Shown: positions 24,668-48,328 of the stretch, one piece after another
Layout of the letters: each line of letters opens with the position of its first letter
Numbering within the stretch: position 1 is the first letter of the stretch
Assembly (NCBI GenBank): GCA_012932295.1
Contig: JAAONU010000008.1
Coordinates: 35,764,949 to 35,828,948, forward strand
Reading direction: 5' to 3'
DNA length: 64,000 nt
From: Cyclina sinensis
Lineage: Eukaryota > Mollusca > Bivalvia > Venerida > Veneridae
Translations under genes and position numbers: made by a program
Notes under the pieces: model-generated
Seen by the model: the letters and a program-made list of their open reading frames with translations, nothing else
Told to the model about the DNA's origin: nothing
Databases searched by the model: none

Positions 24668-24808
24668 ATGCATGTAACTCTTACGTTTATACTTTTTACT
24701 TTCTTGGCATTTTCATGCGCCACAGATCTACCAGGGAAGAAAAGTCTACAAGATTATGCGTCACTTTGTCCATTAAATGATATTTGCGGAAAATCTGCTT
24801 CAGTACAG
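24668..24808 (+). CDS. Gene A exon 1 (signal peptide)
   Basis: 47 codons ending at donor 'gtaatt' in phase 0. It encodes the signal peptide and the first two mature cysteines (SLCPLNDICGKS). The start is the first ATG downstream of the TATA box and is conserved in copy B. Confidence 0.75.
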
Positions 24809-27800
24809 GTAATTTCTTTTATTTTTGTTTGAACAGTTTGAAAAGAAGCAATATTTCTTAGAATACTTTTAACGTCGTCTAAAATATTCTGAAGTGGCCT
24901 TTCACAATATGCTATATTTTTAATTTGTTTAGCTTCCTTAATCTACAGGTAGCCAATGTTTTATTTGTTCGAACATTCATTTTGTATTGCTTAATATGTT
25001 TGCTTTGGAATATTACATTTGGTATTCATAATGAATTTCTAAGAGTTCGCCCTTGGTAAAGGTAAGCAGTTATCTATCGAATCTATATCGTGAATATTTT
25101 TTTAAGCATCAAATTTCTTACTTTATTTAGGCAGAAAAATACCTTTTCCCAAAACGGAAAAGAAAAAAGCCTATCTTGTTTCGTACTTCATTTATGTTGT
25201 GAGTAAATAAAACATTAAACTTTCGTATCATATTGTTTCATTTTAATGGTCTAGCTTTTGGTTGAATATTTCATCACTTGCATCAAATAGGTGGTAAAAT
25301 ATTTTGCTTTTTGATAAAGAATATCACACCTTACTTCAGTTAAGCTGTACCAATTGGTTTTTTCCGTTTTGGTACTGAATTGACTACGAGTTTTGAAAAG
25401 AACAGAATCACTGTATACATATTTCTTTTTATTAACATTTCATAATCGTTGATATAAACTATCGATCTGGATATATCAAACTGTCTGTATGGCATCCCTA
25501 TTGGTTAGGTAATAATGCTTTACGGGAAAAATTTCTTATTTCTTTCAATGATCTTACTGAAGTTTTGAAAAAATATTATGCACAATGTGATGTATCGATT
25601 AGGTTGAAAGCGAAATTGTTTGAACTATCAATCAAGAATCATCAGTGTGTGTGTGCGTGTATGTGTGTTGATGCTTTGCTGGTTTGTCAAGTTAATTTGT
25701 TCGTTGTTTCAAAATAATAATGACTTAATAAGTGAGTTAAATAGCCAATTTTTCCAGGATTTTGGATTAAACGATTTTCATCCGTTTTGTTAGATACGTC
25801 ATCTTTTTATTATTACCAAAATCAGAAAGTATAGCTTTTGGCGTTGAATACTGATATCTTATAATACTCTTAATTTTCAATGCCATCTGTCAGCATTAGG
25901 AACGAAGCACAACAGCACACATACACTGTAATATTACATTAATGGTGTTTTCACATTTTTTGTGAGATTGTCTTGATAAAGGACATGAATATTTATCAGT
26001 TATAGCATATGAAATAAAAACAACGTAATATGTTTTATTTAAAAGAAGGAGCAGTGGTCGAAGAGTTTAAGCGCTGGACTCCCGATCCGAAGGTTGCTAG
26101 TTGGAATCCCACCAGGTTGAAAATTGACAGTAACTTTCCGCATTCCTCACTTTCGGCGCGAGTACTGGTTTGAACCCAGGAAGCAGTCATCGAAAGGGAT
26201 TATTATAAGTTTCAAGAACTTGCTTCTCAATCGATGTAAAATAAATAAGTTTAAACTCTAAAACCTATTTGTGAAGATCCAATGTCAAGACACAGCTAGA
26301 GCTTTATAAAAATTTAAGAAGCAATTTTTTATACGGTAATTGGTCGCTTCTCTTGTCGGCAAATAAACATAAACAGGTCCTGCATCAACCCGTTTGGACG
26401 ACGAAGCTGAAAATGACATAGGATGTGTAAAGACTCCTTCGTGACTTAAAACCATAAGAACTCATATATTGTTCGTGTTTTTGAGAGTTTACTCATGCTC
26501 TTTGCAATTATATCCATCGATTGTCGTCATCTTCACACCAAAATTGATACGCCAACACGTCATATGATAGGACTAACACAGATATGATACTTACAACGTA
26601 TTTGACATAGAATATTTCATTTACGGCGCCAAAATATTAGCCAAAGCTAGGGTATTGTTAATAATTAATCATTCTCTACAATTTCACCAAGTTGCAATGC
26701 TGAAATTCTGCTTTTATTGTACTTCACTTCTAAATTATACTAATAACACACTTTTTCATTATAATATCATTACGCTATAGCTTAAGGATCAGAGAGAAAT
26801 TCCAGATAAATAGTCACTTGTGACGAACACAGAAACATTTTAATTAGCTTCTAATGTTCGTTTTAAAGAATAATATAAATGATTGACCGGTTTATTTTAT
26901 CATGTAAGGCGAGGGACACAGTGTATACATGAGAAATAGAAGTAGCTTATTTGTATAAAGGGAACAGAAACAATGTAAAGTGAATAAAGTAGTTGTAAAC
27001 TAACATTCGTTCGGGATGATTGCCTCTTTCTTTCGAAACCCAGTTTCGACTGGTCTATAAACTAGGTAAAATTAGAGAAAAAGTTTGAGGAAGAGAACTG
27101 CGGTTAAGTATACATGTATAGCATTGCTGGCACTCGATATTAAATTCAACCAGCACCGCAACGAGACCATTCAGGGTCGAGTTGATGGGACGAGTAAATA
27201 ACACGCCCTTGTCTGGTGACGTAACCTTTTGCTGGCATATGTTTACTACGGCGATGTACAGATGTGTGCACTTTTAAGCAGTATTCATATCTGAAATTAT
27301 CATTATGAATAACTCTGTTGATTTTTTTATTCATATCAGAGTCTTTCAAATAGCATAATAGCCGAGCAGAAACATTTTCTGAAGAAGTCATCACTTCTGT
27401 AAAGTTCTGAAAGAATAAGATAAACACTATAATCAACATACGAAGTGATGTAAATCGGGGTGTTTCAAATATCCTGTGCAAATATAGAAACACTATTCCA
27501 AATTTGAAGTATCTTTGTTTAGAGTACTCCTGGAATATAATCCAAATGTCCAGAACAACTAAAAAACCATTTTAGTCTTATGCAGTTGCAAAAAATTTAA
27601 AATCTAGCCCAATTAAACAATCAGCAATGAAATATCAAGCTACCTGTATGACAAGATTCTGACAAAATTTACTAAAATATTCAGCAAAACTTGATCAAAT
27701 TCAAGCTTCTCAAAACTACAAAAAAGCAAGAATTCAAATTATAAAAACATGTTTAACACTAAAAATTGTTCAACTTAAAGAAAAAAGATAGACATTTGTT

Positions 27801-30800
27801 ATGAGTTTGTGTCCTAGTCTAAAATTAGCTGCAAAATCAAGATGGTTAGTTAAAAATATATCCGAACAAGAACTGTCACTGTAATATGACTATGGCCCCG
27901 AAGTGGTGCTTTGACCTTTGAGCTGAGAACCAGTCATTGAGGGGTTAAGGTCAAATAAATATAGGTCAGTGGGAAGGTCTTGTCCAAAGGGATGTTGTGT
28001 CCAAGTATGAGGTATATCCACTTCCTATTGTGGATGTTATGGCCAAATGTTAAAGGTTTTGGACAATTGATCTTCAAGGTGAAGGTCATTCAGGGCTCAA
28101 GGTCAAACAAATATAGGTCAGTGGGAAGGTCTTGTCTAAAGGGGGATTGTGTCCAAGTATGAAGTAAATGCACTTATCAATATGGAAGTTATGGTCAATG
28201 TTAAATTATTTTTTTTTAGAATATTCGATCTTCTGGGTAAAGGTCATTTAGGGATCATGGTCAAACAAATATAATTCTTGTCCAAAAAGGTGTTGTGTCC
28301 AAGTATGAATATGAAGTAAACCAACTTATTGATATGGAAGTTACTAAGGTGAAGGTCATTCAGGGCTCAAGGTCAAACAAATATAAGTAAGGAAGAAGGT
28401 CTTGTCCTAAGTGGTGTTGTGTCCAAGTTTGAAGTAAATACATTTACTAATATGGAAGTTATAGACAATGTTAAAGTTTTTGGACAATTGGATCTTCAAG
28501 GTGAAGGTCATTCAGAGGTCAAGTTCAAACAAATATAGGTCAGTGAGAAGGTCTTGCCCAAAGGGGTGTTATGTCAAGTATGAAGTAAATCCACTTACTA
28601 ATAAGGAAGTTATGGCCAATGTTAAAGTTTTCGGACGGACTGACGGACTGACTGACGGACTGACGTTGATTGGAAAAATTATTTTTGCACATTAAATTTA
28701 TCTATATTAAATAATACAACACCGAATTACTTTAAAAAACGCTTACGACACAAACCGTTTTTTTGGAAAAAATCTAATGTAAGTGGTAGATTTTTACCTC
28801 GACACCGCTAAAAGGAAAACACGAAATTAATCGCAAATCAATAAGATAATAACCTTCATACATATATTATGTGAAAATATAATACTAACCTTTCTTTCCA
28901 GTAATTGTTTGATCGATGAAACTAGTTTTTATTAATATATTTTTAATATTTCAACAGCGTGATTCACTTAACAATGGCGGTCGCTTTTTTATGGAGTCAC
29001 GTGATCAGCCGTGACAACATATTTCCCGTTTCCAGACCATGCTATTTTAAAGATCCTGTTTATATGCTCAGCGGTAATGACGAATGCAGATAAAAGATAT
29101 AAGCTGGTAACCTGAATTACTTTTGTTGAAAAGACACTCGATTGTCTTACATATTTCGGGGTTTGGCCGAGGTGAGCGTCGTTTGTCGCTGTAAAATTAG
29201 TCTGACGTGTATCTGTTTTCATGATTCTGATACTAGAAAAACTGATTAAACATCAAAACAGAAATGCATCAAAAAGATTTGTAATGTTTTCTTTAGACCT
29301 ATGTACCTTATTTTAGGGGCATGAAACCAAAAACAATTTAATTTTTGGCCCAACCGTGAATTAACTACTGTGTAATATTACAATACTGCAGTGAAGTTAT
29401 TGAACAGCAATCATTTGAAAACAAGGTCTACCGTTACTAGATATTACTACTATATATAACAAAAATGGTTCACAAAATTAAGTTTCTTATCGTCATAAAA
29501 TACATCAAAATGTTCAGGTCTCTTATCTGATTTGCAAACCATAGCAACTTTTCAGGTAATATTTACAGAAACAATCCATTTGAATCAATACATTTGAGTT
29601 TGTTCAATAAAATTTGTAAACCGTCAGTTTAGTATGACACAGCACAGCATCGTCAGCAAATTGTCACGGTCTAGTGCTCAACTTCCTATAATTGTATAAA
29701 TACAACCCATGACAACTGCGTCAGAGAATCAATTCTTTGGCTCAGTGTTACAGTGTTGGCATGTCACGTGCGAGATCGGAGTTCGATTCCCGCTCTGGGT
29801 TATGTATTCTAAGATGTTTTGCATCTTTCTGTTGCAGACTTTCATGTTCGTAATTCATGTTAGTAAGATGGGGTCTTGTCTGGAATGACTCCTCCTGCAC
29901 TTAGTTGTAAAAATTAAAATAAAAAAGATAAAATCTTTCAAGATTTCTGTCTGGTCCTCTGATCTAAAATACACCACTCGTCATCATAAATGATAACTTT
30001 CTCAAGAGGGGAAGTGTTACGGTCTAGTGCAAACCTTCCTATAATTGTATTAATACAACCCCTGACACATGCGTCAGGGAATCGATTCTTTGACTCAGTG
30101 TTAGAGCGCTGGCCTGTCACGCGGGAGATTGGAGTTCGATTCCCGCTCTAGGTTGTGTATTCTAAGATGCATTGCATCTTTCTGTTACGGACTTCCATGT
30201 TCGTAAGAAAATAATATCATAAATATTTGAAATTCATTTTAATGTAACTGTATTGGCTTCATCATTATATAAAAAGTCGTGCATGCCGTTAATAAAAAAA
30301 TGAATAGCAAGGGGGGATAACGTTTCCACTTTCTTAACCCCCTTGAAGTTGCCAAAGTAGTTAGTTAGATTACCATTTAGGTGAAAAAAGCAGGGAATAA
30401 AAACTCCTGAGATTTTTTTTCTTTTTTTTTTTTAAAGTGAAACATTGTGGCACGTATACCATCGTTATGATTAGAAACGTAAAATCCGTCGAATATTAAA
30501 ATAATAACACAGTCAAATAAAAATATTAATAATTATTGTCTTTAAGGAAATTAAGCTGGAATTCATCCTTTTTAATTACGTGTATTTGAAAAAATGAAAT
30601 AAGGCAAAACAAGGATGGAAAAGATAGCAAGATTACGGACCTAAATACAAGTATTTCAATACAAATACTTAGTGCCAAACAGGATTTTTTTATACCGCAA
30701 AGTTGTGAGTTCAATATAATGATACTTCCAAGCATATATATTTTTCAAATAAGAAGACATAAATATTAATAATCTTGTTAAATGACATGCTTAAAGTTAA

Positions 30801-33166
30801 TCCAGATCAATAAAAAAAATCTTTAAATTAGCTATTTTTATCATTTTATTGTATATAACTTGAAAAACTATTCCTTTGTTTTTATACATTATTACATATT
30901 GATTGTTTTGTAAAAAAATAATTGCAATGTACACATTTCTTCACAAAAATTAAATTTGATTTCAAATAAGACATCTGGTCAAACTATTGTATCAACTATA
31001 GGAGTCCTGATATGAGTAATTTCTTTTAAGTAAAGATTTGCCAACGTTTTTTTACAATAAAAGCATAATAGGTTATGACAGGAAAACAATAAAAATAAAG
31101 AAGTAAAATAAAATATAAAAATGTCCGATTTCGAAATTGTTTATTACTGTTTTATAACAAAATCAAAATGAAAATGCTATTTTCAGAATTATAATCACAC
31201 AGAGTTGAGCTCATGTTGCCAGAAATGTTCCTGTCATTTGGGATGCACAGCTGTCGGAACGTGTTGCCCTGGCGTAAAATACATCGCACAAGAAGACACA
31301 AAGTACCTTTCATCACTTTTTATATGCAGTAACCTTAAGGAAGTGCTAAATTCTCCTAGAAATGTAACCCCATATAGTGAACCTGGTGAGCAATATCGTA
31401 TCATCCACAGATGTCCTGACCTGAATTCGTCAGATGCTTTTCCTAGGTGTGAACACCCAAAATTACTAGAAGATTATGTTGTTGTATCTGATACAGAAAA
31501 CAGCAATATCTTTAAAAACAAGCACTGTGCAGCGTGTCATAATGTAGAAAATTATGTTCTATGGCCTCTACGTATCACGTCATGCCTAGAATTGATGACA
31601 AGATCCTTTGAATCTGCCAAAGAAAGAGAGTCTTACATCTTACAAAACTGTATCCTTGATGCAAATCCTCCTGAGTCATTCGAAGTAGGGATAGCTACTT
31701 GTTATAGCGATACAAGGGTCATTCGAAAATGTAATGTATCTGGGAAATGGGATGCTTATGAAAAAGTGCTTGAGGAGGCATGCCTTGAGGAAAGAGAAAA
31801 CCAAAACACATTTTTCAAAGGAGAATACTCTGTACCTTCCAGTACATACGCCATTTATTCGAATGTTTACTGTTACCTTTGTAATATGAAGAAAAATGAA
31901 CACAACGGGGTTAAGCATAAGACGTGCGAAAATATTTCTAACGATGCTGGTAAAAGCCTGTTTTTACACTTTTCGGCTCTTTTGGACTTAAAAAGACTTA
32001 CGACTGACAAGCAGCTCAACAAAAATTACCGTTGTTCTTCAAGCGACGACTGGGACTATTTCAGCGTAGGTATTTTCAGTTTTGTATGCGTCAACACATT
32101 TGTAAAACAAATATATGTTTTGGTCTTAAAGTTTAAAAAAAGGGATAAAATTAAAATTTCCTTTCAGACTTTGCAAATAGAGTCACTCCGCCAAAGCAAA
32201 GGCGTACTCTTACGATTTTAAACAAGAAATAAATTAAAAATGATAGACAAGTGACAAGTAGAACAGCTTGATGAAGATTGTTTTCCATTGAACGTCAAAA
32301 TGAAATAACTCAGAGAGTATTTCTGTCTTCAACGTGCTATTTATAGTCTGACCTGAATGAAGGTGTTCTTTAAAATTGGCGGTGATTTAAAAACATATTT
32401 ATAATACTATCATGTATACTTTCAGAATATGTGTAGACCATTGCTGTGTTCAGTCGGTGAGGCACCAGTTTATGGTAGCTGTGAGAGTTTCGTGCTATCT
32501 ACAACAGGAATTGCTGTTAAGATCAATTTTGATCTCGGGTTCTATAAAGGTGACATTGAACAGTTATTGAACTACTGGAATCTTTTTGAGAAAGAAATCG
32601 ACAAACTTGTGATAAGAAAATGCAGGAAATGTACTGTAGCAACATACAAGGTAGAGAGCACATCCCGTCGATATATCAGGCTAATTGTGGAACTTCTTAC
32701 CACAGAAGATTGCTCTGTTACATACTTATTTGAGCGTATAAAGTGGCTTGCCTTGAGTGGTACACTCCACATTAGGTTAAGTGATATGAACAACATTTTA
32801 CACGTTTATTTGACTGTATCATTCGAACAATGGGTAAATATGACATATGTATACAGTGTTTCACAATCGAACAGATGTGACAAAATTATTGAGTTAGAGC
32901 GTAGCCATTTGCAAAACTGTCCGAGGTTTCTGATTCCACAGCAAGATTTGTTTGCAGTCACTGATTTAAGCAATTTGACACTCAGTGCGCAGCAAGATTT
33001 TGAGATTGTAAGAAGCAAGGGAAGTGAAATGATATCAATTTGTAAAGAAACATATTTTCAAATACAGTGGTCCGTTAACAATGCAGAAGCCAGGAGTCAG
33101 TGTTTTTCGACTGTAAGCAGCATTGCGTTCATTTTCGTGTATGAATATTGGTCGGGTATGCTCTGA
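24668..33166 (+). CDS. Secreted somatomedin-B-like cysteine-rich glycoprotein, copy A (three exons, 586 aa)
   Basis: Exons 24668-24808, 31187-32065 and 32426-33166 join in phase 0. Residues 1-18 are a signal peptide (MHVTLTFILFTFLAFSCA). Residues 61-74 fit the somatomedin-B spacing C-x-C-x3-C-x5-CC (CSCHLGCTAVGTCC). Two related cysteine motifs follow: 'FKNKHCAACHNVENYVLW' at about 156-173 and 'YSNVYCYLCN' at about 271-280. Exon 3 opens with CRPLLCSVGEAPVYGSC. Several N-glycosylation sequons (NHT, NVT, NSS, NVS, NMT, NLT) are present. There is no membrane helix and no GPI-type tail, and the stop is followed by AATAAA at about 33199. This domain order resembles the N-terminal region of expanded molluscan adhesion/Mth-like GPCRs, truncated before any seven-helix domain, so a secreted ectodomain or decoy is inferred. 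The ligand is unknown. Confidence 0.75.
26044..26260 (+). mobile_element. tRNA-derived SINE in gene A intron 1
   Basis: The head reads 'gcagtggtcgaagagtttaa' (A-box region), an anticodon-like arm 'ctggactcccgatccgaagg' and 'gttggaatccc' (B-box region), followed by an unrelated tail ending 'aaataaataag'. Copy B runs straight from 'ttttgtttaaaa' to 'cctattgg' near 43863, so the insertion followed the duplication. 'taaaa' flanks both sides. Confidence 0.7.
27146..27493 (-). CDS. Hypothetical secreted-like ORF within gene A intron 1
   Basis: A 115-codon minus-strand frame. Near its N-terminus is a hydrophobic stretch (MLIIVFILFFQNF at about residues 19-31), preceded by a basic segment, that could act as a signal or anchor. 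The remainder has three cysteines and a basic stretch (HRRSKHMPAKGYVTRQGR) and ends DPEWSRCGAG. No family is recognised. The matching part of copy B (44750-44830) covers only the C-terminal third and is disrupted, and the remaining two thirds lack a counterpart there. It may be a chance frame; no promoter or splice signals were identified. Confidence 0.25.
   Translation of the reverse strand: MFLYLHRIFETPRFTSLRMLIIVFILFFQNFTEVMTSSENVSARLLCYLKDSDMNKKINRVIHNDNFRYEYCLKVHTSVHRRSKHMPAKGYVTRQGRVIYSSHQLDPEWSRCGAG
27890..28672 (+). repeat. Tandem repeat, about 170-190-bp unit, ending in a (GGACTGAC)n run
   Basis: The phrase 'aaggtcaaacaaatatagg' or a variant recurs at about 27948, 28100, 28256, 28370 and 28522. 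It alternates with 'aaggtcttgtccaaaggg' and 'gtccaagtatgaagtaaa'. The array ends in 'ggacggactgacggactgac' at about 28633-28663. It is absent from copy B. Confidence 0.75.
29620..30420 (-). pseudogene. LINE reverse-transcriptase fragment, copy A, split by an insertion
   Basis: Minus-strand pieces correspond to the copy B fragment at 45340-45581. 30208-30420 encodes the remains of the 'KGVKQGETLSP' motif, and 29620-29662 encodes 'FADDAVLCHT', the catalytic FADD region. The 545-bp element at 29663-30207 sits immediately before the FADD codons. Confidence 0.65.
29663..30207 (+). mobile_element. Miniature element with direct terminal repeats carrying a tRNA-Asp-like core
   Basis: About 190-bp direct repeats lie at both ends (29663-29852 and 30017-30206), separated by about 165 bp. 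Each repeat holds a tRNA-Asp-like stretch; the right one includes 'gcctgtcacgcgggaga', matching the tRNA-Asp anticodon arm, and 'gttcgattcccgct' as a B-box. The empty site is in copy B near 45377. Either a SINE dimer or a TRIM-like element with a Pol III promoter in its repeats would fit. Confidence 0.6.
31187..32065 (+). CDS. Gene A exon 2 (SMB-like and cysteine-rich region)
   Basis: Acceptor 'ctattttcag', 293 codons, donor 'gtaggt'. The coding frame begins with NYNHTELSSCC at 31187. A frame reading on past the donor ends in a stop near 32221, but that tail is intron sequence and is not similar to any protein pattern. Confidence 0.8.
32426..33166 (+). CDS. Gene A exon 3 (C-terminal domain, stop)
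   Basis: Acceptor 'tactttcag', then 246 codons and TGA. It begins with the C-x4-C...G-x-C motif and continues as a mixed alpha/beta-looking domain of about 230 residues with sequons NMT and NLT. The last residues are SGML. Confidence 0.8.
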   Translation, partial: NMCRPLLCSVGEAPVYGSCESFVLSTTGIAVKINFDLGFYKGDIEQLLNYWNLFEKEIDKLVIRKCRKCTVATYKVESTSRRYIRLIVELLTTEDCSVTYLFERIKWLALSGTLHIRLSDMNNILHVYLTVSFEQWVNMTYVYSVSQSNRCDKIIELERSHLQNCPRFLIPQQDLFAVTDLSNLTLSAQQDFEIVRSKGSEMISICKETYFQIQWSVNNAEARSQCFSTVSSIAFIFVYEYWSGML

Positions 33167-33197
33167 CTTAGAATTTTACAAACCTTTCACAAAAAGA

Positions 33198-33208
33198 AAA
33201 TAAATAAA
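33198..33208 (+). terminator. Poly(A) signal of gene A
   Basis: 'aaataaataaa' contains overlapping AATAAA hexamers about 32 bases after the stop. Copy B has the variant 'aatataaag' at the same place. Confidence 0.5.
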
Positions 33209-34036
33209 AGAGTAGTTGTTGAAGAAATTTTAAGAGTCGCTTTTTTCATTTAGTCGGTTTGTCTTTACATGAACAGGACAAAAATGGTAGAGAATAAAAT
33301 ACACTGTAAATAATATGAAATAGAACAAAAGTATTTACTCGTTTTAATGTTAAGCAATACCAAGCATCTTTATTGTATGATCTCATATGTTATCATATAT
33401 GATAAACATAATCCAATACCTAAGCATTTGTTAAAAAATTGAAAAGTAGTGAATAATGTTTGCAATAGCATCACTCAAGGTTTTAACAATTAAAAAGTGA
33501 ACAATCCCTGTTATGATACTGGACAAACATTTGTCTTAATGTTCCTATTACTTCTGCAACAATTTGTAACACATACAGCTTTACGCCATTGACCATTGGG
33601 TGTCAAATTTATACATATAAAATATCTACCCCATGAGTAAGTTTTTACTGATGAAAGTGTGTAAAACTTACTTTATGATGTGTTTCTGTAAAAAAAACAG
33701 TAATTAATTATTATTATTTATAAACATTTTCTTTCTTATGCATCACTGGCCCATCTGTGAGTCAGTCACTTTAAAGTTTTTATTTTTTGTTGCATTTGCA
33801 ACAAGAGTTCTACATGTAAAGAAATACTTCAAACAATTTGTGTAGTTTCATAGTCCAAAGTTCATAGTCCATTTTAGGGGGCTTTCTGGTTCGCATATTT
33901 GACCAGATGATAGTTTATTCCCTGTCAAGACTGTCCTGATATGACCTTAGGTGTTGATGGGAATGTTAAACTTGAGTTTACTCATTCAGACCATCTAATG
34001 GTTCTGTCTTAAAAGCGTGGTAACGATGGTACTTAC

Positions 34037-34146
34037 GGTCTGGTGGATAGCGGATGCAAGTTCTGGCATAATAAGAACTGCTGTCTTTCATGTTTATTTC
34101 TGGGCTGAAACGTTTGTGGACCTCCACCTCGAGGTCACTGAGACAT
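34037..34146 (-). pseudogene. Dead duplicate of TRANK1-like coding exon 1
   Basis: It aligns with 5617-5728 and keeps the ATG, the donor 'gtaagt' and the upstream acceptor region. Codon 4 (TGG in the parent) is TGA, and a 2-bp deletion falls near the 3' end (110 against 112 nt), so it cannot encode the parent's N-terminus. No copies of exons 2-4 are present here, so only the exon 1 side of the gene was inside the duplicated segment. Confidence 0.85.
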
Positions 34147-35169
34147 CGTCTGTACTGTTTTCAAACCTATAAAAATAGATTTCCAGTATTATCAGGAAAA
34201 AACTAAAGATTTATAAACAGAACCCTACTTTACTGCTGTTTGACAAATATTATTTTTCTTGACATTCAGTTTCCAAACTGACTCAAAGAAAATCCCAGCT
34301 TTTGTATGTGTTTTATTGTCATGGCTGCCTTACACATATAGATTCCTTAATGTGTTACCATACATTTTGCATTGTCAGACTTGTATTTTTATGTTATGTT
34401 ATGTGCTAAACTTTGTTATTTTCTGCCATGTGCCAACTGTCATGTTAGAAACGACATCAAAACAATATAGCATTGACTTTGCAAAACCTATGTGACTCCG
34501 ATATTGGAATCAGACATTGGGCCGATATTAAAAACCATATCGGTCCAATATCGGACCGATTTGAATGCTTGCTGGGTGTATCCTCAGTGGATCAAGAATT
34601 TAAAAATTTTAACTTTGTGTGAATTAGTCACTGTATGTTAATTTCACTGTTAAGTTCAAAGACAAGAAAATAAGGTTGGGATATAGAAATGATTATATGT
34701 TCACATGTTTTATTTTAGAACAAATAAAAAGAATGTCAACTGAATGAATGAACATGACTAGTTTGTTGGTTTCCAATTTTTGTATCCTTTAGCAATTTTG
34801 CTTGTCTAAGGATCCTGGCTGCCAACTTTTATTTTAGACAGGTAGTGAATTTTTTTATTCAAATGAATACAATTTCCAAATAAATACTGTAGTAGCTCAA
34901 TATAAAGTTACTCATTTCCTCATTCAAACTTCAAATGTTTAAATGAAACAGACTCAAACAATCAGGTACATATGGTAATATATGTGCCTGAAAGAATTCA
35001 AAAGCAAGTTTTATCTAGCTAAGTGTAATCGACCAGTAATTCAACATGTCTTGTAAATAACAAAATATTCACAACATTTTAACACAACCCTTATACCCGG
35101 CGATTTTTCTGTGATTCCCTATGCAGTTTAATTTTCCAAGTTTTGATATGATGAATAGTTCACCCCACT

Positions 35170-35960
35170 ACTATAGTTCGGTGTATGTGCATCCGCTCGG
35201 ATCTGTCCGCTGTATATCTTGCTCATTCATTGAAGGATTACAAAATAATTTGGTACAAATGTTCACCTTGATGGAGTTGTGTGTCGCACACAAAACCCAG
35301 GTCCGCCGCTCAAAGGTCAAGGTCACACTTGGGGGTCAGCGCAAAACCCGTGTCCGGAGCGTAACTTCTACATATGTGGAGGGATTTTAATATAACTTGG
35401 GACAAATATTCTTCATAGTAAGGCGGAGTGTCGCGCGAAAAATTCAGGTGTCTGTGGTAAAGGTCAAGGTCACACTTAGGGGTCAAATGTCTAATAACAA
35501 AATAAAACATTCATTTGAGAGTGTAACTTCTCTATACATGGATGGATTTTAATATAACTTAGCACCAATGTTCTCCTTGTTTAGTTGAGTTGTCTCGCGC
35601 AAAATGAAGGTCAAGGTCACAAAAGGTTAAAGGTCAAATAAAAATATTAAAATTTGTTTGTTGGCGCTGTATTTTGCTTATGCTTTAAAGTATTAAGCTT
35701 AGTGGTCAGAGGATTTTGAAATTGTTGAGCCCCCTTGTGGTGAGGTCGACTTGTGGTTTGATGTATATGCGTCCGTCAGTCCGTGTGTTTGTCTATATTT
35801 GTCCGGTCATATCTTACTCATTCTTTGAAGGATTACAAAATAGTTTGATACAAATGTTCACCAAAAGCGGTATCGAGCGACTTCTGGATTTTCAGTCCAG
35901 AACGAAACATGGGTCACCGATCCGCCCCGATTATACATACTCCCTCAACAACTCGATATA
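35170..35960. repeat. Dispersed repeat fragments with 'aaggtcaaggtcacac' units
   Basis: Two to three degenerate units contain 'gattttaatataacttggga' and 'aaggtcaaggtcacacttgg' (35200-35650), followed by a second head at 35715-35870 ('ttgaaggattacaaaatagt') fused to the decayed SINE head at 35868-35935. The block is absent from copy A apart from the SINE. Confidence 0.6.
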
Positions 35961-36689: not shown

Positions 36690-38366
36690 TAGCTCACCTG
36701 AGCAGCACATATTGCTCATAATGAACTTTTAAGGTCGATGTCTTCTCGGCGTTCGTTGCCCCTTGTCCACAATTACTTCAAGGGATATCTCCTCTGAAAC
36801 ATAAAACAAATTTGATAAAAGTTGCCCATGAAGTTCTATCAAAATTGTGGGCTACAGGAGCATAACTAGATTTTAAAAGTGAAAACTTTAAAAATATTCT
36901 TTTCCGAAACCACAAGGCCTCGAGCTAATATATTCGGCATTTAGCATCGTCTAATGGAACTCTACCAGGTTTGTTAAAATCATGACGCAATGTCCAAATT
37001 GGCCACATCCCAGGGGGTACATGATTTCACATAGGCTTAGACAGGGAAAACTTTAAAAAAATTCTGAAACCACAAGGCCTAGGCCTAAGATATTTTGGTA
37101 TGCAGCATTGTTTAGTGGACCTCTACCAAGTTTGTTCAAATCATGGCCCTGGGATCTAAATTTGCCCCATTCAAATTTTTGTACTGGGGTCAAAATTGGC
37201 CCTGGTCACCGAGGCTTAACAGTAAGACTTTTCAACAGATATCTTATATATTTGGTATATAGACTCCTTGCAGGAATCTTAGCCATTCAACTGGATCAAG
37301 GTCAAAGTCACCGAGGCTAAATAGATTTTATACTATTCCCATTAGAGTCTTCATTTATTGACCAATATCTTAAATAATTGGTATGTTGGTAGCATGCAAG
37401 AACTTCTACTCTTGAATTGGGTTTGAGGTAATTTGGGTCAATTTCGAGTTCACTGAGGCTAAAAATATATTTTCTTATCTTATGTCATATAGCCTTTACT
37501 TATTGACTGACATTTTAGATATTTTTGTATATAGACATCTTTCATGGACCTCTACCATTAACTGGGGCAAAGGTCACCGAGGCACCGAGGCTAAAATAGA
37601 TTTTTTTCTATTTAACATCTTAGAGCATTCATTAATTGACCTATATCTTAGATATTTAATTTGTAGGTACCTTGCATCAACCTCTACACTCGGGTGGGGT
37701 TTGAGGCCAAGGTCACCGAGGCTAATAATAGGTCATTCTACTTTCTGTCATAGAGCCTTTATTTATTAACTGGTGATTTATATTTGGTTTGAGGGCACCT
37801 TCCATGAACTTTTACCATTCAATGCCTTCAAGGTAAATTCACCAAGGTCAAAATAGATTTTTCTACATTCCCTTATGGAGCCTTCATTTCCGTTATGGAC
37901 CTATCTCTTAGATATTTGGCATGTAGGTACCTTGCATCGACCTCTAATACTGATAGGGATTTGAGATCACTGGGGTTCATGTCAAGGTCACAGAGTTTAA
38001 ACATAGATTTTTTTCTTTAGATCATAGTGTTATACTCCTATTAGGTTTAGTTTCAACAAAACTTTCACAATACATTTATAAACAATAGATCTCCTTTCTT
38101 TTTCTCAATAAACCCGATCCCATCATGAGTCAAAAGAAACATATCTTGCCATGTCTGCATGCTAGAGATTTCACAACCTTGATAATCTAAAAAAACACTG
38201 GCTGAGTTTATTGACCGATATTTTAGATATTTGGTATATATGTACCTTAGACATTTGCACTCAAGTTGGATTTTAGATCACTAGGGTAACCGAGGCTAAA
38301 GTTCAAAATTGGTCCCTCCCCAGGGTTCACTTGGTTTTATATAGCCTGGCATAGGTAAAAAACTAT
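36690..38366 (+). repeat. Copy B counterpart of the 17782-20010 repeat
   Basis: It begins 'tagctcacctgagcagcaca' and follows the same order of units as copy A, with small deletions. It is interrupted at about 38367 by a 3.1-kb insertion and resumes at 41446-41560, ending 'gggccattatggccctcttg'. Confidence 0.75.
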
Positions 38367-39727
38367 TAAAACAATAGGGCCATATGGCCCACTTGAGTAT
38401 GACTGCTTTTAGAAATGTTGTTATGGACCTGGTGTATTACCCCAGATGATCCATATTCAAACTTGAGCTAGAAATCGTCGAAACAACCTTTCTGACAAAT
38501 TTCAAGGATATTTGGACCTCTAGAGTTTTAATAGGGTTATTCCATATTTGGGCTCTGTGACCTAATATTTTAACCTAGATAATCCATATTCGAACTTCAG
38601 CTGGAAATGATCAAAGCAACCTTCCTGATTAAATTCCCAGGGTATTTGGACTGAAAAAGTACCCTCTAGAGTGTTTTCAATGTTTTCCATATTTGGGCTC
38701 TGTGACCTAGATTTTGACTTCAGATGACCCATATTCAAACCTGACTTAGAAACCATCAAACATTCATTCTTAGATAAACGGCACAATTACGAATTTTGAC
38801 TGTCCTTCGAAGTGCTTCTACTTAGAAATGCATACAGCTCGTTTAAGGACATACCAAAACAAACAGTTGGTAGGTATGTAAAAACTTAGAAAAAACTTGC
38901 ACTCTGTTTGAAAATATTCTGTTCAGACAGAAGCCTGAATGATACAGAATGAGATAAAATGTTCTGTCCCACTGCACAGTCGGTATGTTTTTTTATATAT
39001 ATTTCGAAATTCACACTTGTTTTTCAATATTTCACCTAACTAAAAGCATTTAAAATAATTAACAAAGGCACGTTTCTTGAAAGAAACGTTATATCGATTT
39101 ACGAAGGTGTTTAAATTCTAGTCTGTGTAATGAAAAGCCACGCAAAAACATACATTGCCTTGTCTCTCAAATCAATTTTGATTGTTAGACTTAAAAGTGA
39201 AAGCCTGTATTAAGGCTACGAAGCATAGAGACTAAAGCAAATTGTGGAATTGATTACTTCTTTAACTCAAGTCAGATATATTTGCAGAAAATTAAGTACT
39301 ATTTTATATGTTTTTAGTGTTTTGAGAGTTTTAATTGTTCCAATAGTTATATATCTTTATTTGCTTTATATGAAGTTAAAAGGTTTTTAATTGCAGTCGA
39401 AAATGTCCTCATTTTTTATATTAAGTTGTTTTCGCTTAAACAAGATAAGAAACGTTACATAGATCACACACTATCTTTGATTGTATCTGTTTCTGTTGTA
39501 TACGCATTAAATCTTTTCCTCGGTAAATATTTTGCGTCAGATACTCGTCAGCAGACCGGTTTAGATGACATCTTGTTTTTATATGGAAAAATATTAGTTG
39601 GAGTGTATGTATATAATGTTAAAGTCACATAGTTATTCTGCTTTAGCATTTTGCTATAAGATTATTAAGTGGTAAGCCATTACAAGTACTTTTGGTGGTA
39701 AGCATGCTGTAACAGTTTGATATTTAA

Positions 39728-39778
39728 GTAGTATTTACATACATGAATACAATAACTAAATTTAAATTTCGTAGGATT
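39728..39778 (+). repeat. 51-bp direct repeat, left copy
   Basis: Identical by eye to 40486-40536, 758 bp away inside the 38761-40744 transposon. It begins 'gtagtatttacatacatgaa' and ends 'ttcgtaggatt'. Confidence 0.75.
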
Positions 39779-40485
39779 ATTCAATATTTTTTTTATGTTT
39801 TTATACTGTAGAGAAGCAGTTTCTGTAGATATTTACAGAGTACAGAAAAAACTGCATAAGATACGTTAAGATACCTTTATACTAAATTATGACAATAAAT
39901 CGTCTCATAAACTGTAAAAAAGTGCATTGTTTAACGGTTGTCTGCCTATAAAATGGATTTCGTTTATTAGCGTATTTTTTCCTTTGATATATTGGTTAAG
40001 CTTTTAAAGTTATTCAAATGTTATAGGACTAATTAATTAATTTGCTAAAATATCGGAAAATATATATTTAAAGGATAAAATTTAATTCTTGACTCCGAAG
40101 TTTCATATGTTTTTCAATTAAAAAAAATATTTATTTGAATATGAATAATAAAAATGAAAAATACATTTAAATAGTTTCAGATGTTGTGTCCAGTAAGGTA
40201 CGTTATGACTTTTCGGTTTAAATAAAGTTCCTTAAATTTCAAGGGCCAACTTATTTTAGAATGAAGCACTTCATTGTTTTTAAACAACTTTCGAATTTAG
40301 TGCGTTTTTCAGGTAGAATGAATGAGTTTTAATAAAGATATAATAATAAGAACGAGCATGAAAATTTAAAGACTGTTTTTTTGTGTATTCACTGTAATTT
40401 GCTCTTGCAGAAAACCAAAAATAATAAGGTGATACTCGAAGCTAAGGATTTTACGTGTTGTTGAATAAGTAACGATTTAGAGCTC

Positions 40486-40536
40486 GTAGTATTTACATAC
40501 ATGAATACAATAACTAAATTTAAATTTCGTAGGATT
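40486..40536 (+). repeat. 51-bp direct repeat, right copy
   Basis: Second copy of the repeat at 39728-39778. Perfect identity inside an older transposon suggests a recent internal duplication. Confidence 0.75.
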
Positions 40537-42790
40537 GGCAATATAACGTATCTTATCGCCCTTTTGGGTGTATATTTTTAAACAGCTGCATCTTTTAAAG
40601 TAAAGCCGGTTTAGGTCCACTGAATGTTGTTTTATATTGTTTAAATGTTGTCAAAATAAAATCAGAAGAAAAACAAGGATTTCTTATCTATCGATTTTTT
40701 ACAACTTGTTTTTTGAAATTGTGCCCTTTATCTTAGAATGAATGCAAAACAACCTTTCTGACACATTCCATGTTATTTGGACTGAAAATGTTACCTCTAG
40801 AGTGTTAACAAGGTTTTTCAATATTTTGGTTTAGTGACCTAGTTTTTTATCCCAGTTGATCTGTATTTAAACTTGACCTAGAAATCATCAAGGCAATCTT
40901 TCTGACAAACTTACAGGATATTTGGACTAAAAGTGTTAACAAGGTTTTTTCCATATTTTGGCTCTGTGACGTAGTTTTTGACCCCAGATGACCCATATTC
41001 AAACTTCTTCTAGAAATTATCAAAACAACCTTCTGACAAATTTCCAGGTTCTTTACTCTGAAAATGTTACCTCTAGAGTGTCAACAAGGTTTTCCCATAT
41101 TTAGGCTCTGTGACCCAGTTTTTGATCTCAGATAACCTTTATTCAAACCTGAGCTAGAAATTATCGAAGCAAACTTTCTGACAAATTTCCAGGATATTTG
41201 GACTGAAAAAGTAGCCTCTAGATTGTTAAAAATGATTTTTCAATTTTTGGACTTTGTTACCTTGTTTTTCATCCCAGGTAACCCATATTTAAACTTCCTC
41301 CGAGCAATTAATGGGACAAACATACTGACTGAGTTTCATGACAATTGAGATACATATTTGACCACTAGAGTGTGGACGTCCGACGGACGAGGGACGACAG
41401 ACGACGGACATTGATCGATCCTAATAGCCTACGGTTCCGGTGAGCTAAAAATCTTCTTGTCAGAAACCAAGGCCTGGAGTTTAGATATTTGATGTGTGAA
41501 TGAAAGAAGTAACAGTTGTATTTAGGTGATCGATTAAAGGGCCATTATGGCCCTCTTGTTTAATTTGTATTTACGTTTCGTTTAAGGAGGCCTACAGTTT
41601 GACCTGCTTTACACGTTACTATTCATGTTATTTTTTCAACAAAGACCTCGTTGGTATTAATCTTTTTGGCTGTACAAACTTTTTTGTCTTGAAGGGTGTA
41701 TGAAGAATTGAAAATATTTTATTTTAAGTGATTTTTAATTCCAAATCCAACATAATGTTCTCATGTTGTAACTTATTTAGATCTTTTTGTAAGCTATTAT
41801 TTTGTGTTAAAGTATATACTGTCAGATAAACATCTGTACCGTCTGTAAATAGACGGACTTGTAATGTGATGTTACCGGAAACATCATTTAAACATGAAGA
41901 AAAGGAGCGATCATGGTGTTTATCTTGAGGCACACTCACTTCTCCGTTTCAAACTTATTTTCATGGCCAAGTTTTAGAAAAAAATTTAGAATAGAAGTTT
42001 GAATTTTACCATTCGACATCTTCGGTATTTAATCTACTTCCTCGATGGCTCTGTTGTTTTCTTCTTAATGTCCTTCAGTACATATTGACAAAAAGAATGA
42101 GAGAATAATTTGATGTTGTAACTTCTTCAAATTCATTTTAATCGTATAACCTTTAATGAGACATATCCTATAAAATAACCCATGTTATAATACTTTCGTA
42201 TTTTAATTGCTCTTTCTGTATATAACAAATTAAAGCTGTAAAGATAAACACTACTTTCTAAGAAGGTTTTCATTTATTATATGTTGCCACCCACCCAGAA
42301 CTGTACAACAACTCCCTATATTATTTTTATATATTAGATATATTCAGTGTCCTATCAGCGAACAATATACTCGCTCTTAAAAAGTTGTGTTTTGATAATC
42401 TACAAACTGTATAGAAATGTCGGCTTTTGTATGCACCGTATTTTTTCCATAAATTAAATAGCTGACATCTGATTTCGGCCTTCTTTTGACTCCATGAGTT
42501 TTTGATATTACATGTCTGTATTTTAACTACCGTTAACCACTCACAATGGAAAACAGAACTGTTCTAATGAAGCAATTTTTACCAAATAATATTTATCGTT
42601 AGGTTTTAATACAGTTAACCCAATTCCTTTCATAATTCGAACTTTCTTGGCAATCTCCTTCTTCAGTATAATATGTTTTTAGATAAAACCAATATCAAAA
42701 CAGAATTATGCAAGGACACACCCCTTTTCGCAAATTCTTGAAGAATCTTCTCTCATTACAGAATGTATGCTTTTATAATGCAAACCGCAT

Positions 42791-42799
42791 TATATAAGA
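42791..42799 (+). promoter_or_regulatory. TATA box of gene B
   Basis: TATATAAGA lies about 45 bp upstream of the ATG at 42844, the same spacing as gene A. The upstream 'attcttgaagaatcttctc' motif near 42732 is also conserved. Confidence 0.6.
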
Positions 42800-42843
42800 A
42801 CGTATCGAAGAGAGGTATTTTCCTCACTATATCATCAGGGAAG

Positions 42844-42984
42844 ATGCATATAACAGTTTTGTTTATACTTTTTACTTTCTTGGCGTTTTCATGCGCCACA
42901 GATCTACCAGATAAGAAAAGTGTACAAGATTACGCGTCACTTTGTCCATTAAGTGATTTCTGTGGGAAGTCTCAAGTTGTACAG
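42844..42984 (+). CDS. Gene B exon 1 (signal peptide)
   Basis: 47 codons, donor 'gtaatt'. Upstream in-frame codons exist, including an ATG at 42763, but the ATG at 42844 is shared with gene A and directly precedes the signal peptide, so it is preferred. Confidence 0.7.
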
Positions 42985-45900
42985 GTAATTTCTTTTCTAT
43001 TATATTTTTGAACAGTTGAACACGGTTAGTTAATGGTCTAGCTTTTAGTTGAATATTTCATCACTTGCATCCAAAAAGGTAGTAAAATATTTTGCTTTTT
43101 GATAAAGAATATCACACCTTACTTCAGTTAAGCTGTAACCATTGGCTTTGTCTGTTTTGGAAATGACCACGCCTTTTGAAAAGAACAGAATCACTGAATG
43201 TATATTTTAGATGTACACTTCTTTTATTAACATTTTATAATAGTTGATTTTAAACTGCCGTGCAGGATATATCAAACTGATTGTCTGTATGGCATCTCTA
43301 TTGGTTAGGTATTAATGTTTTGGGGGACAAATATCTTATTTCTTTCAACGGTCTTACTGAATTTTTAAAATGATATCATGCACTAGGTGATGTTCCTATT
43401 TGACTGAAAGCGAAATTGTTTGAACTATCAATCGAGAATCAACAGTGTGTTGTGTGTGTGTGTGTGTGTGTGTGCGTGTGTGTGTGTGTGCTTTCATGCT
43501 TTGCTTGTTCGTCAAGCTATTTTGTTCGTTTTTTTTTTCAAAATATGAATGACTTAATAGGAGAGGTAAATAGCCGATTTTCCAGATTTTCAATTTGAAC
43601 GATTTTCATCAGTTTTGTTGAATACATCATTTACCAAAATTAGGAAGTATAGCTTTTGAGGTTGAATACTAATATCTTATAATCCTTTTTATATTTAATT
43701 CTATCGAGTCAGCATGATGCATAAAGCACAATAGCACACACTTACAGTAATATTATGATAAATGGTGTTGATGCCTTTTTTATGAGATGAAGTCTTGAAA
43801 AATGATATGATTCATCAGTTATAGCATACGAAATAAAAACAAGATAATATGTTTTGTTTAAAACCTATTGGTATAGATCTAATGACAAGAAACAGTTATA
43901 GCTTTAAGGAAATTTAGAAAGCAATGTTGTTTTTTTATATAAAGTATTTAGTCACTTCTTGTCGGCATATAAACATAAAGAAGTTCTACATCAAACCGTG
44001 TGAACGACGAAGTTGCAAATAACACAGGATGTGTATAGTCTTCTTCGTTTCGCCTAAAAACCATTAGTAAGAACTCATGAATTGTACGTGTTATTGAGAC
44101 TGTACTCCTGCTCTTTGCAATAATATCAACTGATGTTGTTATCTTCAAGCCAAAATTGAAACGCCAACAAGCCATATGATAGGGCTATAACAGATCTAAT
44201 ATTTACAACGTATTTGACATGGAATATTTCATTTACGCAGCCAAAGTATTATCCAAAGCTATGGTATTGTTAATAATTAATTATTCTCTACAATTTCATC
44301 AAGATGCAATGCTGAAATTCTGCTTTTATTATATTTCTCTTCTTAAATATGCTAAAAACACACCTTTTCATTATATCAATTTGCTATGGCTTAGAAAACA
44401 TAGAGAAATTTCAGATGAATAGTCCTGTGATGAACACATAAACATTTTATTATTCTAATGTTCTTTTGAAAAAAAAAATATTGATCGGTTTATTTAATCA
44501 TGTAAAGCGAGGGACTCCGTGTATGCACGAACAACAGAAATAGTTTTCGTGTACAAAGGGAACATAAAAAAATGAGACACTGAATAGAGAAGTTGTTATC
44601 TAACATTCGTTTTGGATGATTGCCTCTTTCTTTCGAAAGGCAGTTTCGACTGGTCGATAAACTAAGTAAAAGTTGACAAAAGGTTGATCAAGAGAGCTAC
44701 GATTAAGAAAATGGCACACGGTATTAGATTTAACCTACACCATAACGAAACGCGTTAGAGTCGAGAGGACGGAGCAGGTAAAATTAAAAAATCAGTTTAA
44801 AACAGGCCCTTGCCTGGTAATTTGTGCGGTGACGGATGCAATAGTAAGGTTTTAGCTGTTAATAAGAATTATTTTTGTTGAAAAGACAATTGGTTATCTT
44901 ACATATTTTGGAATTGGCCGGGATGAACGTCATGTATCTATTTTCATGATTCTGATACTAGAAAAAATGATTAAATTACGAAACAGAAATGCATCAACAA
45001 GATTTTTAATGTTTTCTTCCGACCTACCTACCCACACTATTTTATGGGCATGAAGCCAAAAAGAAACAAGCTAATTTTTGACCCAACCGTGAATTAACCA
45101 CTGTACAATAATATAACATTGCACGGAAGTTATTGCACAGCTAGCTTTTGAAAACAAGGTCTGCTGTTACTAGGTATAACTACTCTTATATAACAAAAAT
45201 GATTCGCAACATTGTTTCTTATCGTCATAAAATTCTTCAAAATGTTCAGGTCTGTTACCTGATTTGCAAATCGTTTTGGTAATATTTACAGACATATTCC
45301 ATTTTAAACAATACATTTGTGTTTGTTCAATAAAATCTAAAAAACTGTCAGTTGAGTATGAAACAGCACAATATCGTCAGCAAACAATAACATACATGTA
45401 AATATTTGACATTCATCTTTCGTAACTGTATCGGCTTCATCATATAAAAAGTTGTGCATGTCGTTAATAAAAAGAATGAAGAGCCGGGGGATAACGTTTC
45501 TCCCTGCTTAACCCCCTTGAAGCTGTCAAAGTAGTCTGTTAGAATACTATTTAGGGAAAATATAGCAGCGAATAAAAGCACCTAAGGTTGTTTTTTTTTC
45601 TTTTTTTTAAGTGAAAGATCGTGGCATGTATACCATCTTTATGAATAGAAACATAAAATTGGTCGAATATTAAAATAGTAACACAGTCAAAAAGTATTTA
45701 ATTAATGTCTTCAAGGAACTTAAGCTGGAATTCAACCGTTGCTAATTACATGTATTTGGAAATATGAAATAAGGCAAACCAAGGATGTAAGTTTACAGAC
45801 CTAAATAGAAATATTTCAATACAAATACTTAATGGCAAACAAGATTTTTATAAACTGCAATGTTGTGAGTTCAACATAATGATACTTCCATGCGTAGATA

Positions 45901-48328
45901 TATTTCAAAGAAGAAAACATAAATATTGAATAATTTTTTGAATGACATGCTTTAAGTTAATTCAGATCAATGAGAACATTCTTTAGATTAAATGTTTTTA
46001 TCATTCTATTGTTTATACAGTATTCGTTTGTGTTTGCATATTATTACATTTTGGTTGTTTCGTAAAAAGATAAAAAAAAATAATTGCAATATACACATTT
46101 CTTCATGAAAATAGAATTTCATTTCAAATGAGACACATGGTCAAACTATTATATCAACCATAAGAGTCCTGACATATGTCATTTCTTTTAAGTACAATTT
46201 TGCAAATGTTTATACAACAAAAGCATAATAAGTTATCAAAGTAAAATAATAAAAATGTATATGTAATATAAAGTATAAAACATGTCTGATTTTAAACTGC
46301 TCGTAACTGTTACAAAACCAAAATGAAAATGCTATTTTCAGAATTATAACCACACAGAGTTGAGCTCGTGTTGCCAGAAATGTTCCTGTCATTTGGGATG
46401 CAGAACTGTCGGAACTTGTTGCCCTGGCGTAAACTATCTCGCACAAGAAAACACAAAATACCTTTCATCACCTTTTATATGCAGTAACCTTCAGGACTTG
46501 CTAAATTCTCCTAGAAATGTAACCCCGTATAGTGAACCTGGTGAGCAATATCGTATCATCCACAGATGTCCTGACCTGAATTCGTCAGATGCATTTCGTA
46601 GGTGTGAAAACCCAAAATTACTAGAAGATTATGTTGTTGTATCTGATAAAGAAAACAGCAATATCTTTAAAAACAAGCACTGTGCAGCGTGTCATAATGT
46701 AGAAAATTTTGTTCTATGGCCTCTACGTATCACGTCATGCCTAGAATTGATGACAAGATCTTTTGATTCTGCCAAAGAAAGAGAGGCATACATCTTACAA
46801 CACTGTAGCCTTGATGCAAATCCTCCTGAGTCATTCGAAGTAGAGATAGCTATTTGTTATAGCGATACAAGGGTCATTCGAGAATGTAATGTATCTGGGA
46901 AATGGGATGTTTATGAAGAAGTTCTTGAGGAGGCATGCCTTGAGGAAAGAGAAAACCAAAACACATTTTTCAAAGGAAAATACTATGTGTCTACCGGTAC
47001 ATACGTCATTTATTCGAATGTTTACTGTTACCTTTGTAATACGAAGAAAAGTGAACACAACGGGGTGACGAAAAAGACGTGCAAAAATATTCTAAACGAT
47101 GTTTTTAAAGGCCTACTTTTTCACTTTTCGGCTCTTTTAGACTTAAAAAAACTTACGACTGACAAGCAGCTCAACAAAAATTACCGTTGTTCTTCAAGCG
47201 ACGACTGGGACTATTTCAGCGTAGGTATTTTCAGTTTTGCATGCGTCAACACATTTGTTAAACAAATATATGTTTTTGTCTTAAAGTTTTTAAAAAAAGG
47301 AATTGAATTAAAATTTCCTTTCAGACTTTGCAAATAGAGTTACTCGGCCAAAGCAAAGGGGTGCTTTCAAGGTTTTTTAAGAAGGCATAAATCTAAAATG
47401 GTAGACGAGTGACTTTAGGAAAGCTTACTGAAGATAAATTTTTCCATTGAACGTCAAAATGAAATAATTCAGAAAGTATGAATGTGTTCAACATGTTATT
47501 TTCAGTTGGCCTGAATGAAGGTGTTCGTTAAAATTGGCGGTGATTTAAAAAAAGAGATATTTATACTATTATCTTTTATACTTTCAGAATGTGTGTAGAC
47601 CATTGCTGTGTTCAGTGGGTGAGGTACCAGTTTATGGTAGCTGTGAGAGTTTCGCGTTATCTACAACAGGATTTGGTGTAAAGATCAATTTTGAGCTCGG
47701 GTTTTATAGAGGTGGCATTGAACAGTTATTAAACTATTGGACTAACTTTGAGAAAAAGGTTGACAAACTTGTGATAACAAAATGCAGAAAGTGCACTGTA
47801 ACGTTATACGAGGTAGAGAGCACATCCCCTCGTCATTTTAGGTTAATTGTGAAACTTTTTACCACAGAATATTGCTCTGTTACATACTTATTTGAGCATA
47901 TAAAGTCGCTTGCCTTGAGTGGTACACTCCACATTAGGTTAAGTAATAGGGACAACATTTTACACATTTATTTGATTGTATCATTCGAACATTGGGTAAA
48001 TATGACATATGTAAACAGTCTTTCACAATCGAACGGTTGTGGAAAATTTCTTGAGCTAGAGCGTAGCCATTTGCAAAACTGTCCGAGGTTTTTGATTCCA
48101 CAGCAAGATTTTTTTGCAGTCACTGATTTAAGCAATTTGACAATCAATGCGCAGCAAGATTTTGAGATTGTAAGAAGCAAGGGGAACGAAATGCTATCAG
48201 TTTGTAAAGAAACATATTTTCAAATACATCGGTCCGTAAACAATGCAGAAACCAGGAGTCGATGTTTTTCCACTGTAAGCAGCATTGGATTCATTTTAGT
48301 GTATGTAAACGGGTCGGATATGCTCTAA
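42844..48328 (+). CDS. Secreted somatomedin-B-like cysteine-rich glycoprotein, copy B (three exons, 586 aa)
   Basis: Exons 42844-42984, 46342-47220 and 47588-48328 have exactly the same lengths and phases as gene A. The signal peptide is MHITVLFILFTFLAFSCA. All cysteines of the SMB-like motif (CSCHLGCRTVGTCC) and of the later C-x2-C motifs are kept. By eye count, identity to gene A is about 81% in exon 1, 86% in exon 2 and 79% in exon 3. Intron 1 is 3357 bp against 6378 bp in gene A, the difference being insertions in A. As in gene A, the protein stops without a membrane helix. The conserved frame, splice sites and cysteines argue that both copies are functional; the role in defence or signalling is unknown. 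Confidence 0.75.
43445..43491 (+). repeat. (GT)n microsatellite in gene B intron 1
   Basis: About 22 GT units with two interruptions. The copy A equivalent near 25645 is shorter and mixed ('gtgtgtgtgcgtgtatgtgtg'), so the array expanded or shrank after duplication. Confidence 0.9.
45340..45581 (-). pseudogene. LINE reverse-transcriptase fragment, copy B
   Basis: The minus strand encodes 'SFKGVKQGETLSP'. After a frameshift it reads 'LFINDMHNFLYDEA' and 'LLFADDIVLFHT', which contains the intact FADD motif of reverse transcriptase. Only about 80 codons survive. The same fragment in copy A (29620-30420) shows that it predates the duplication. Confidence 0.75.
46342..47220 (+). CDS. Gene B exon 2
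   Basis: Acceptor 'ctattttcag', 293 codons, donor 'gtaggt', in phase 0 at both ends. About 40 residue differences from gene A, mostly outside the cysteine motifs. Confidence 0.8.
47588..48328 (+). CDS. Gene B exon 3
   Basis: Acceptor 'tactttcag', 246 codons and TAA. About 52 residue differences from gene A, clustered around the middle of the domain and at the C-terminus. Confidence 0.8.
   Translation, partial: NVCRPLLCSVGEVPVYGSCESFALSTTGFGVKINFELGFYRGGIEQLLNYWTNFEKKVDKLVITKCRKCTVTLYEVESTSPRHFRLIVKLFTTEYCSVTYLFEHIKSLALSGTLHIRLSNRDNILHIYLIVSFEHWVNMTYVNSLSQSNGCGKFLELERSHLQNCPRFLIPQQDFFAVTDLSNLTINAQQDFEIVRSKGNEMLSVCKETYFQIHRSVNNAETRSRCFSTVSSIGFILVYVNGSDML

Follow-up and report, generated by a model that had tools for sequence, protein, structure and literature searches.

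Tandem genes of the clam Cyclina sinensis encode relatives of Methuselah-like receptor ectodomains without a seven-helix core

The DNA analyzed here, referred to as the window, is a stretch of 64,000 nucleotides (C17:35764949-35828948) of the Cyclina sinensis assembly, which comprises 902,855,857 bp in 154 contigs. Two tandem paralogues are found on the + strand, gene A at window positions 24668-33166 and gene B at 42844-48328, each composed of three exons with splice sites taken from the genomic sequence alone. In gene A, exon 1 (24668-24808) encodes a signal peptide, assigned by hydropathy, followed by two Cys residues; exon 2 (31187-32065) encodes a core similar to that of somatomedin-B (SMB) domains and two C-x2-C modules; and exon 3 (32426-33166) encodes a C-x4-C..G..C domain, a pre-helix segment (SICKETYF) and a hydrophobic tail that runs to the stop codon. 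The exons of gene B are located at 42844-42984, 46342-47220 and 47588-48328.

Exon lengths are the same in the two genes (141, 879 and 741 bases), and all introns have GT-AG ends and are in phase 0. Both products are 586 residues long, identical at 485 of the 586 residues, and all 34 Cys positions are common to A and B. The 1,761 exon bases align without a single gap opening, as compared to 53+6 in the alignment of introns 1 and 2 (3,625 bases), and the coding sequences are constrained (NG86 dN 0.084, dS 0.153). Because the exons are equal and free of gaps, dN is smaller than dS and all Cys residues match, A and B look like real genes, intact and complete as read. The window contains four stop-to-stop frames of at least 180 amino acids, and all of them correspond to exons 2 and 3 of A and B.

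The similarity between the two loci extends beyond the coding parts, with 86.7% identity over 248 bp upstream, and stops about 400 bp past each stop codon. A putative TATA box is found on the + strand 44 nt 5' of the ATG in each case, TATATAAAA at 24615-24623 for gene A and TATATAAGA at 42791-42799 for gene B. Gene A is followed by a putative polyadenylation signal, AATAAA (33199-33204, + strand), which is absent at the matching place after gene B, where only AATATA is seen (48370).

Elsewhere in the window, repeat units of 126-165 bp are arranged in tandem at 8685-9427, 22064-22548, 40801-41209, 51359-51754, 56202-56646 and 61873-62119. The arrays at 22064 and 56202 have 165-bp units that appear similar to each other and are reminiscent of the old bivalve satellite DNA. 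Two open reading frames on the - strand (12721-13185 and 14226-14765) resemble, by motif, remnants of a LINE-type retroelement; Pfam gave no convincing match for either. A third, also on the - strand (3893-4240), contains a weak TPR-like segment below the Pfam cut-off and may belong to some other, unrelated gene as an exon. Rfam and tRNA scans yielded no result.

The domain content given for both genes in the initial annotation, i.e., a signal peptide, an SMB motif, two C-x2-C modules and a C-x4-C..G..C domain ahead of the stop codon, was confirmed, in products that both have 586 residues and share 34 of 34 Cys residues. The SMB-like core, C-x-C-x3-C-x5-CC, is encoded at 31226-31267 in gene A (residues 61-74) and at 46381-46422 in gene B (both + strand), and when either protein was shuffled 20,000 times, a core of this type arose in 4 of the permutations. 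Its Cys residues 61, 63, 67, 73 and 74 are nearly invariant in an alignment of ten proteins that includes the receptors P0052, P0051 and P0049. The C-x2-C modules of gene A are FKNKHCAACH (Cys 161/164, 31526-31537, + strand) and YSNVYCYLCN (Cys 276/279, 31871-31882, + strand).

The core has the Cys spacing of an SMB domain at the corresponding position, while Pfam does not recognize an SMB domain here. Searches with A, B and pieces of these proteins returned no Pfam family at E up to 10, including Somatomedin_B (PF01033), 7tm_2, Methuselah_N (PF06652) and GPS/GAIN. The PF01033 model also misses receptor L057 and the ectodomains of L056 and L058; among other receptors it matches P0052 (E 1.9e-7), falls just below the cut-off for P0051 and is weaker still for P0049. 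NCBIfam searches with A, B and their pieces gave nothing, the corresponding sequence search of the PDB gave only matches at chance level, and searches of viral, bacterial and phage collections gave no result. Neither A nor the A/B alignment, used as query against a protein database, yielded a close relative of A; since clam proteins are present in this database, it holds no such relative at the sensitivity of the search. A search with the complete 586-residue products, as had been suggested earlier, finds no Pfam family for A or B; the relationship to receptors emerges from searches of the genome and from profiles of single exons (see below).

It had also been stated that neither protein carries a membrane helix. 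Outside the N-terminus no 19-residue hydropathy window exceeds 1.3 in A or B, but the last ~20 residues are moderately hydrophobic, so that the statement was too strong. The tail of A (residues 566-586; 33101-33163, + strand) resembles a GPI signal or a truncated helix 1, and that of B, defined by hydropathy, is encoded at 48263-48325 (+ strand). The best 15-residue windows in these ends reach 1.51 in A and 1.91 in B, i.e., they are at the weak end of the set of related proteins, in which L026 and L040 reach 3.29 and 2.70, respectively. A charged residue is found within the last ten positions, Glu in A and Asp in B. With respect to GPI-type features, both proteins have a signal peptide as judged by hydropathy, and their C-terminal hydrophobicity is limited to these two values. 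Since the C-terminal end could be either a GPI signal or what remains of helix 1, plain secretion, as originally proposed, was not established. When Cys 17 (signal peptide) and Cys 566 (tail) are left out of account, A retains 32 Cys residues, an even number, and in copy D, a further member of the array, Cys 566 is replaced by Arg; both observations fit, weakly, a tail that is removed.

In 21 of 22 last exons of the set, no 15-residue window is more hydrophobic than the best one within the tail (the exception is L042); this sample includes L023, which ends at the edge of its locus before any stop, and leaves out L037. The same holds for four of four further last exons. In all, 31 distinct tails (24+3+4) were read to a stop codon, some of them from broken or partial copies (L002, L004, L017 and L051). 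No tail came from L054, whose frames are short and overlap, or from L044, L046, L049, L055 and L069, which are interrupted. Measured from the pre-helix Cys pair, the tail is 29-45 residues long in 23 of 24 cases and about 40 residues, by eye, in L040, while L063 and L065 have somewhat longer tails. Also by eye, helix 1 of three receptors ends approximately 43-55 residues past the same pair. The 24 tails were collected from frames ending at most 70 residues from the pre-helix pair, for which reason continuations into a seven-helix (7TM) region cannot be counted from them; the absence of a 7TM core is instead drawn from frame listings and 7TM similarity searches. Four relatives, L062 and L068 (C6), L064 (C5) and L066 (C8), end in one strong transmembrane helix followed by a short basic cytoplasmic tail, i.e., they are single-pass forms.

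The similarity to the ectodomains of expanded molluscan Methuselah-like or adhesion-type receptors, noted in the initial annotation as a resemblance, proved to be homology: receptors of the same genome share the ectodomain, an intron position and a related last exon. In all six receptor loci examined (L056-L061), a single open reading frame covers the end of the ectodomain, a pre-helix segment that contains Cys, and the seven-helix region. The 7TM part of L057 is 62% identical to protein P0001 of the clam Mercenaria mercenaria, whose proteins are the nearest named ones, and it matches adhesion GPCRs in the PDB. A profile of A-type exon 2 matches the receptors over 275 columns with P 1.5e-22 (0.24 with reversed receptors), and its comparison with P0052 and P0051 gave E 2.4e-6 over 171 columns that lie outside the SMB core (reversed, 0.1). 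For exon 3 the match is weak and lies at the pre-helix segment, CPRxxL...VCxxxYF (P 4.5e-4; reversed, 0.76; hhalign probability 24-33% over ~60 columns). Exon 2 of the L033 type links to both sides, with P 5.7e-13 against the receptors and 1.6e-23 against the A type, and its exon 3 gave hhalign values of 13.7% over 39 columns and 42% over 21 columns, respectively.

A phase-0 intron precedes the C-x4-C domain in five of five receptors and in six of six receptor-less relatives checked, as judged from splice signals only; the first Cys of the C-x4-C motif is missing in receptors L056 and L059. A tree of exon 2 with 21 rows (16 receptor-less and 5 receptor) requires two changes, and a single origin is not rejected (AU p 0.385, or 0.31 without the long branch L053), i.e., the tree does not distinguish between one and several origins or between loss and gain. 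In the protein database, P0001, P0006, P0047, P0049 and P0051 carry the Pfam assignment PF28443, and this family may be that of the ectodomain of these receptors; the copy of Pfam scanned gave no PF28443 match in P0006, P0047, P0049 or P0051.

A and B had been regarded as a pair, but they belong to a genome-wide set. With protein A as query, at least 77 genomic places match at E<=1, located in an array on C17 and, as more distant relatives, on C4, C11, C18, C19 and other contigs; a receptor ectodomain used as query matches at least 40 places, and the Pfam 7tm_2 family at least 123. Merging the matches of protein A and of the receptor ectodomain, with omission of matches to exon 1 or exon 3 and of two short pieces of exon 2 from loci already included, gave at least 76 distinct exon-2 places. 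Among the matches listed, 27 of these are followed by a 7tm_2 place on the same strand at a distance of up to 12 kb downstream, and the other 49 are not. These counts are lower bounds, the 49 include broken copies and may include places with an overlooked 7TM region, and the division is based on most of the 123 7tm_2 places, with the omission of fragments beside listed ones and of some on C4, C5, C13, C18, C154, C1 and C7.

When receptor 7TM sequences were compared with 54 receptor-less loci and the window (279 kb), and separately with L055 and L062-L069 (35 kb), the best E value was 0.12 in both cases; the receptor loci that served as positives in these searches were found at 9e-47 or better and 5e-12 or better, respectively. 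None of the frames of at least 80-90 residues in the receptor-less loci contains a 7TM region.

Copies are clustered on C17 (35.38-36.09 Mb), C18 (4.93-4.99 Mb), C19 (23.4-23.9 Mb) and C4 (1.57-1.70 Mb). Within the C17 array, copies at G000:C17:35867596-36017612 (L002-L004 and L013-L015) lack the first half of exon 3 or have an interrupted exon 2, and some copies in this region are nearly identical, pointing to recent duplication. The pairwise dN/dS ratios among copies A-D are 0.49-0.59 (NG86) or 0.59-0.72 (ML), i.e., these copies are constrained but fast-evolving, and the ratios do not show positive selection.

SMB domains in receptors of this general type are known from several animals. They have been described in Methuselah-like or adhesion-like receptors of Nematostella, amphioxus and acorn worm (PMC4768249), in planarian PARF1 and Nematostella NvX (PMC3261222), and in an amphioxus expansion (PMC2246102); an expansion of Methuselah-like receptors in octopus (PMC6408891) and an unrelated SMB protein that is raised in infected clam tissue (PMC4769524) have been reported as well. 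The SMB-bearing Methuselah- or Mthl-like receptors (NvX, PARF1, and those of amphioxus and acorn worm) belong to class B and carry the SMB domain near the N-terminus, and the A-type profile aligns with the SMB-bearing P0052. In contrast to these receptors, A and B are without a 7TM region, and Pfam does not detect the SMB-like core in either of them. The module order of A and B is also that of P0001 and P0006 (KNxxCxxC modules, CRPLxC..G and VCxDEYF), uncharacterized 7tm_2 proteins of M. mercenaria, but these are full receptors, to which A is 21 and 23% identical, respectively. Mouse adhesion GPCRs give rise through splicing to soluble and membrane-anchored N-terminal fragments (PMC6667449), which like A and B are ectodomains without a 7TM region; the mouse fragments are, however, splice or cleavage products of a receptor gene, whereas A and B are separate genes for which no 7TM exon was found. 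Among the papers listed in searches of an open-access library, no separate gene family of this kind, without 7TM, is described.

These data lead us to favor, with somewhat more confidence than doubt, a model where A and B, which by homology, intron position, coding constraint and absence of a 7TM region are shown to be paralogues of receptor ectodomains without the seven-helix core, act as GPI-anchored or secreted decoys or co-receptors of SMB-bearing, Methuselah/NvX-like class B receptors. In the receptors, a single exon codes for the membrane-proximal part of the ectodomain together with the 7TM region, while the corresponding exon of the receptor-less set mostly stops inside helix 1 or close to where that helix ends and, in a few members, after one helix with a basic tail. 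According to the model, the 7TM region would have been lost rather than gained, which is the simpler reading because the combination of SMB and 7TM is old, although the tree does not prove it. The remaining hydrophobic C-terminus, positioned at the start of helix 1 and mostly devoid of a cytoplasmic part, may serve in many members as a GPI-attachment signal; in A and B, where it is weakest, it may have decayed to a soluble end, such that these two proteins may be secreted. The ectodomains would bind the ligand of the full receptors and act as decoys or co-receptors at the cell surface or in solution, and the set would have diversified via tandem duplication.

That A and B are fully secreted soluble proteins, e.g., a decoy, a ligand carrier or a shed factor, in which the hydrophobic end is a vestige of helix 1 that does not anchor, is consistent with the lack of a strongly hydrophobic segment beyond the N-terminus and with the charged residue close to each C-terminus. 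We nevertheless consider this unlikely, though a serious contender, because distant relatives keep a hydrophobic end at the corresponding place, stronger in L026 and L040 than in A and B. The copy clusters on C17, C18, C19 and C4, the fairly high dN/dS among copies A-D and the variable C-terminal ends would also be expected of a diversifying recognition repertoire, in immunity or between gametes, which re-uses receptor ectodomains and no longer has the receptor's ligand in common; with dN/dS below 1 in all pairs computed, such a role appears improbable.

A set of degenerate receptor genes on their way to loss would be recognizable by damaged copies, and several are seen, both in the C17 array, where L002-L004, L013-L015, L017 and L020 contain interruptions or are missing one half of exon 3, and elsewhere (L044, L046, L049, L055 and L069). 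Yet A and B are intact, free of indels, with splice sites kept and dN below dS, and the last exon is intact in many relatives located on other contigs, which makes this explanation very improbable for the set; as a reading of A and B, that of pseudogenes was rejected on account of their intact reading frames. Finally, a 7TM region could come from a far-off exon or be joined through an alternative splice from within exon 3, in which a donor-like site is found 31 bases from the start in both copies (32456 and 47618) that outscores the exon 2 donor in a home-made matrix. Splicing of this kind, to a downstream seven-helix exon, was named in the initial annotation as the observation that would speak against its proposal. 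Among the matches listed, C17 has no 7tm_2 place beyond 34.29 Mb and the nearest one lies 1.48 Mb upstream of the window; the window itself shows no 7TM similarity, and the receptors that were read hold their 7TM region in the same frame as the end of the ectodomain. We give this arrangement almost no credence, and a downstream 7TM exon for A and B was rejected for lack of 7TM similarity in the window.

Tentatively, and as a possibility we hold with less than even confidence, the favored model of receptor-less ectodomain paralogues may be extended to a graded kit built on one ectodomain, ranging from 7TM receptors through one-helix forms with a basic tail (L062/L068, L064 and L066) and forms with a GPI-like tail to the nearly soluble A and B. 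The receptor-less genes could then be separately regulated ligand sinks or co-receptors, or a diversifying recognition repertoire.

One practical consequence concerns the counting of receptors, which from ectodomain matches alone would here be inflated nearly threefold (at least 76 places, 27 with a 7TM region among the matches listed). Adhesion-type ectodomains devoid of the receptor core are known as products of splicing or cleavage, and a genome-wide set of separate genes whose ends fall at about one position in helix 1 would represent a different route to decoys or co-receptors. A natural ectodomain that is soluble or GPI-anchored could, in addition, be expressed as bait and would thereby help in the search for ligands of Methuselah-like receptors.
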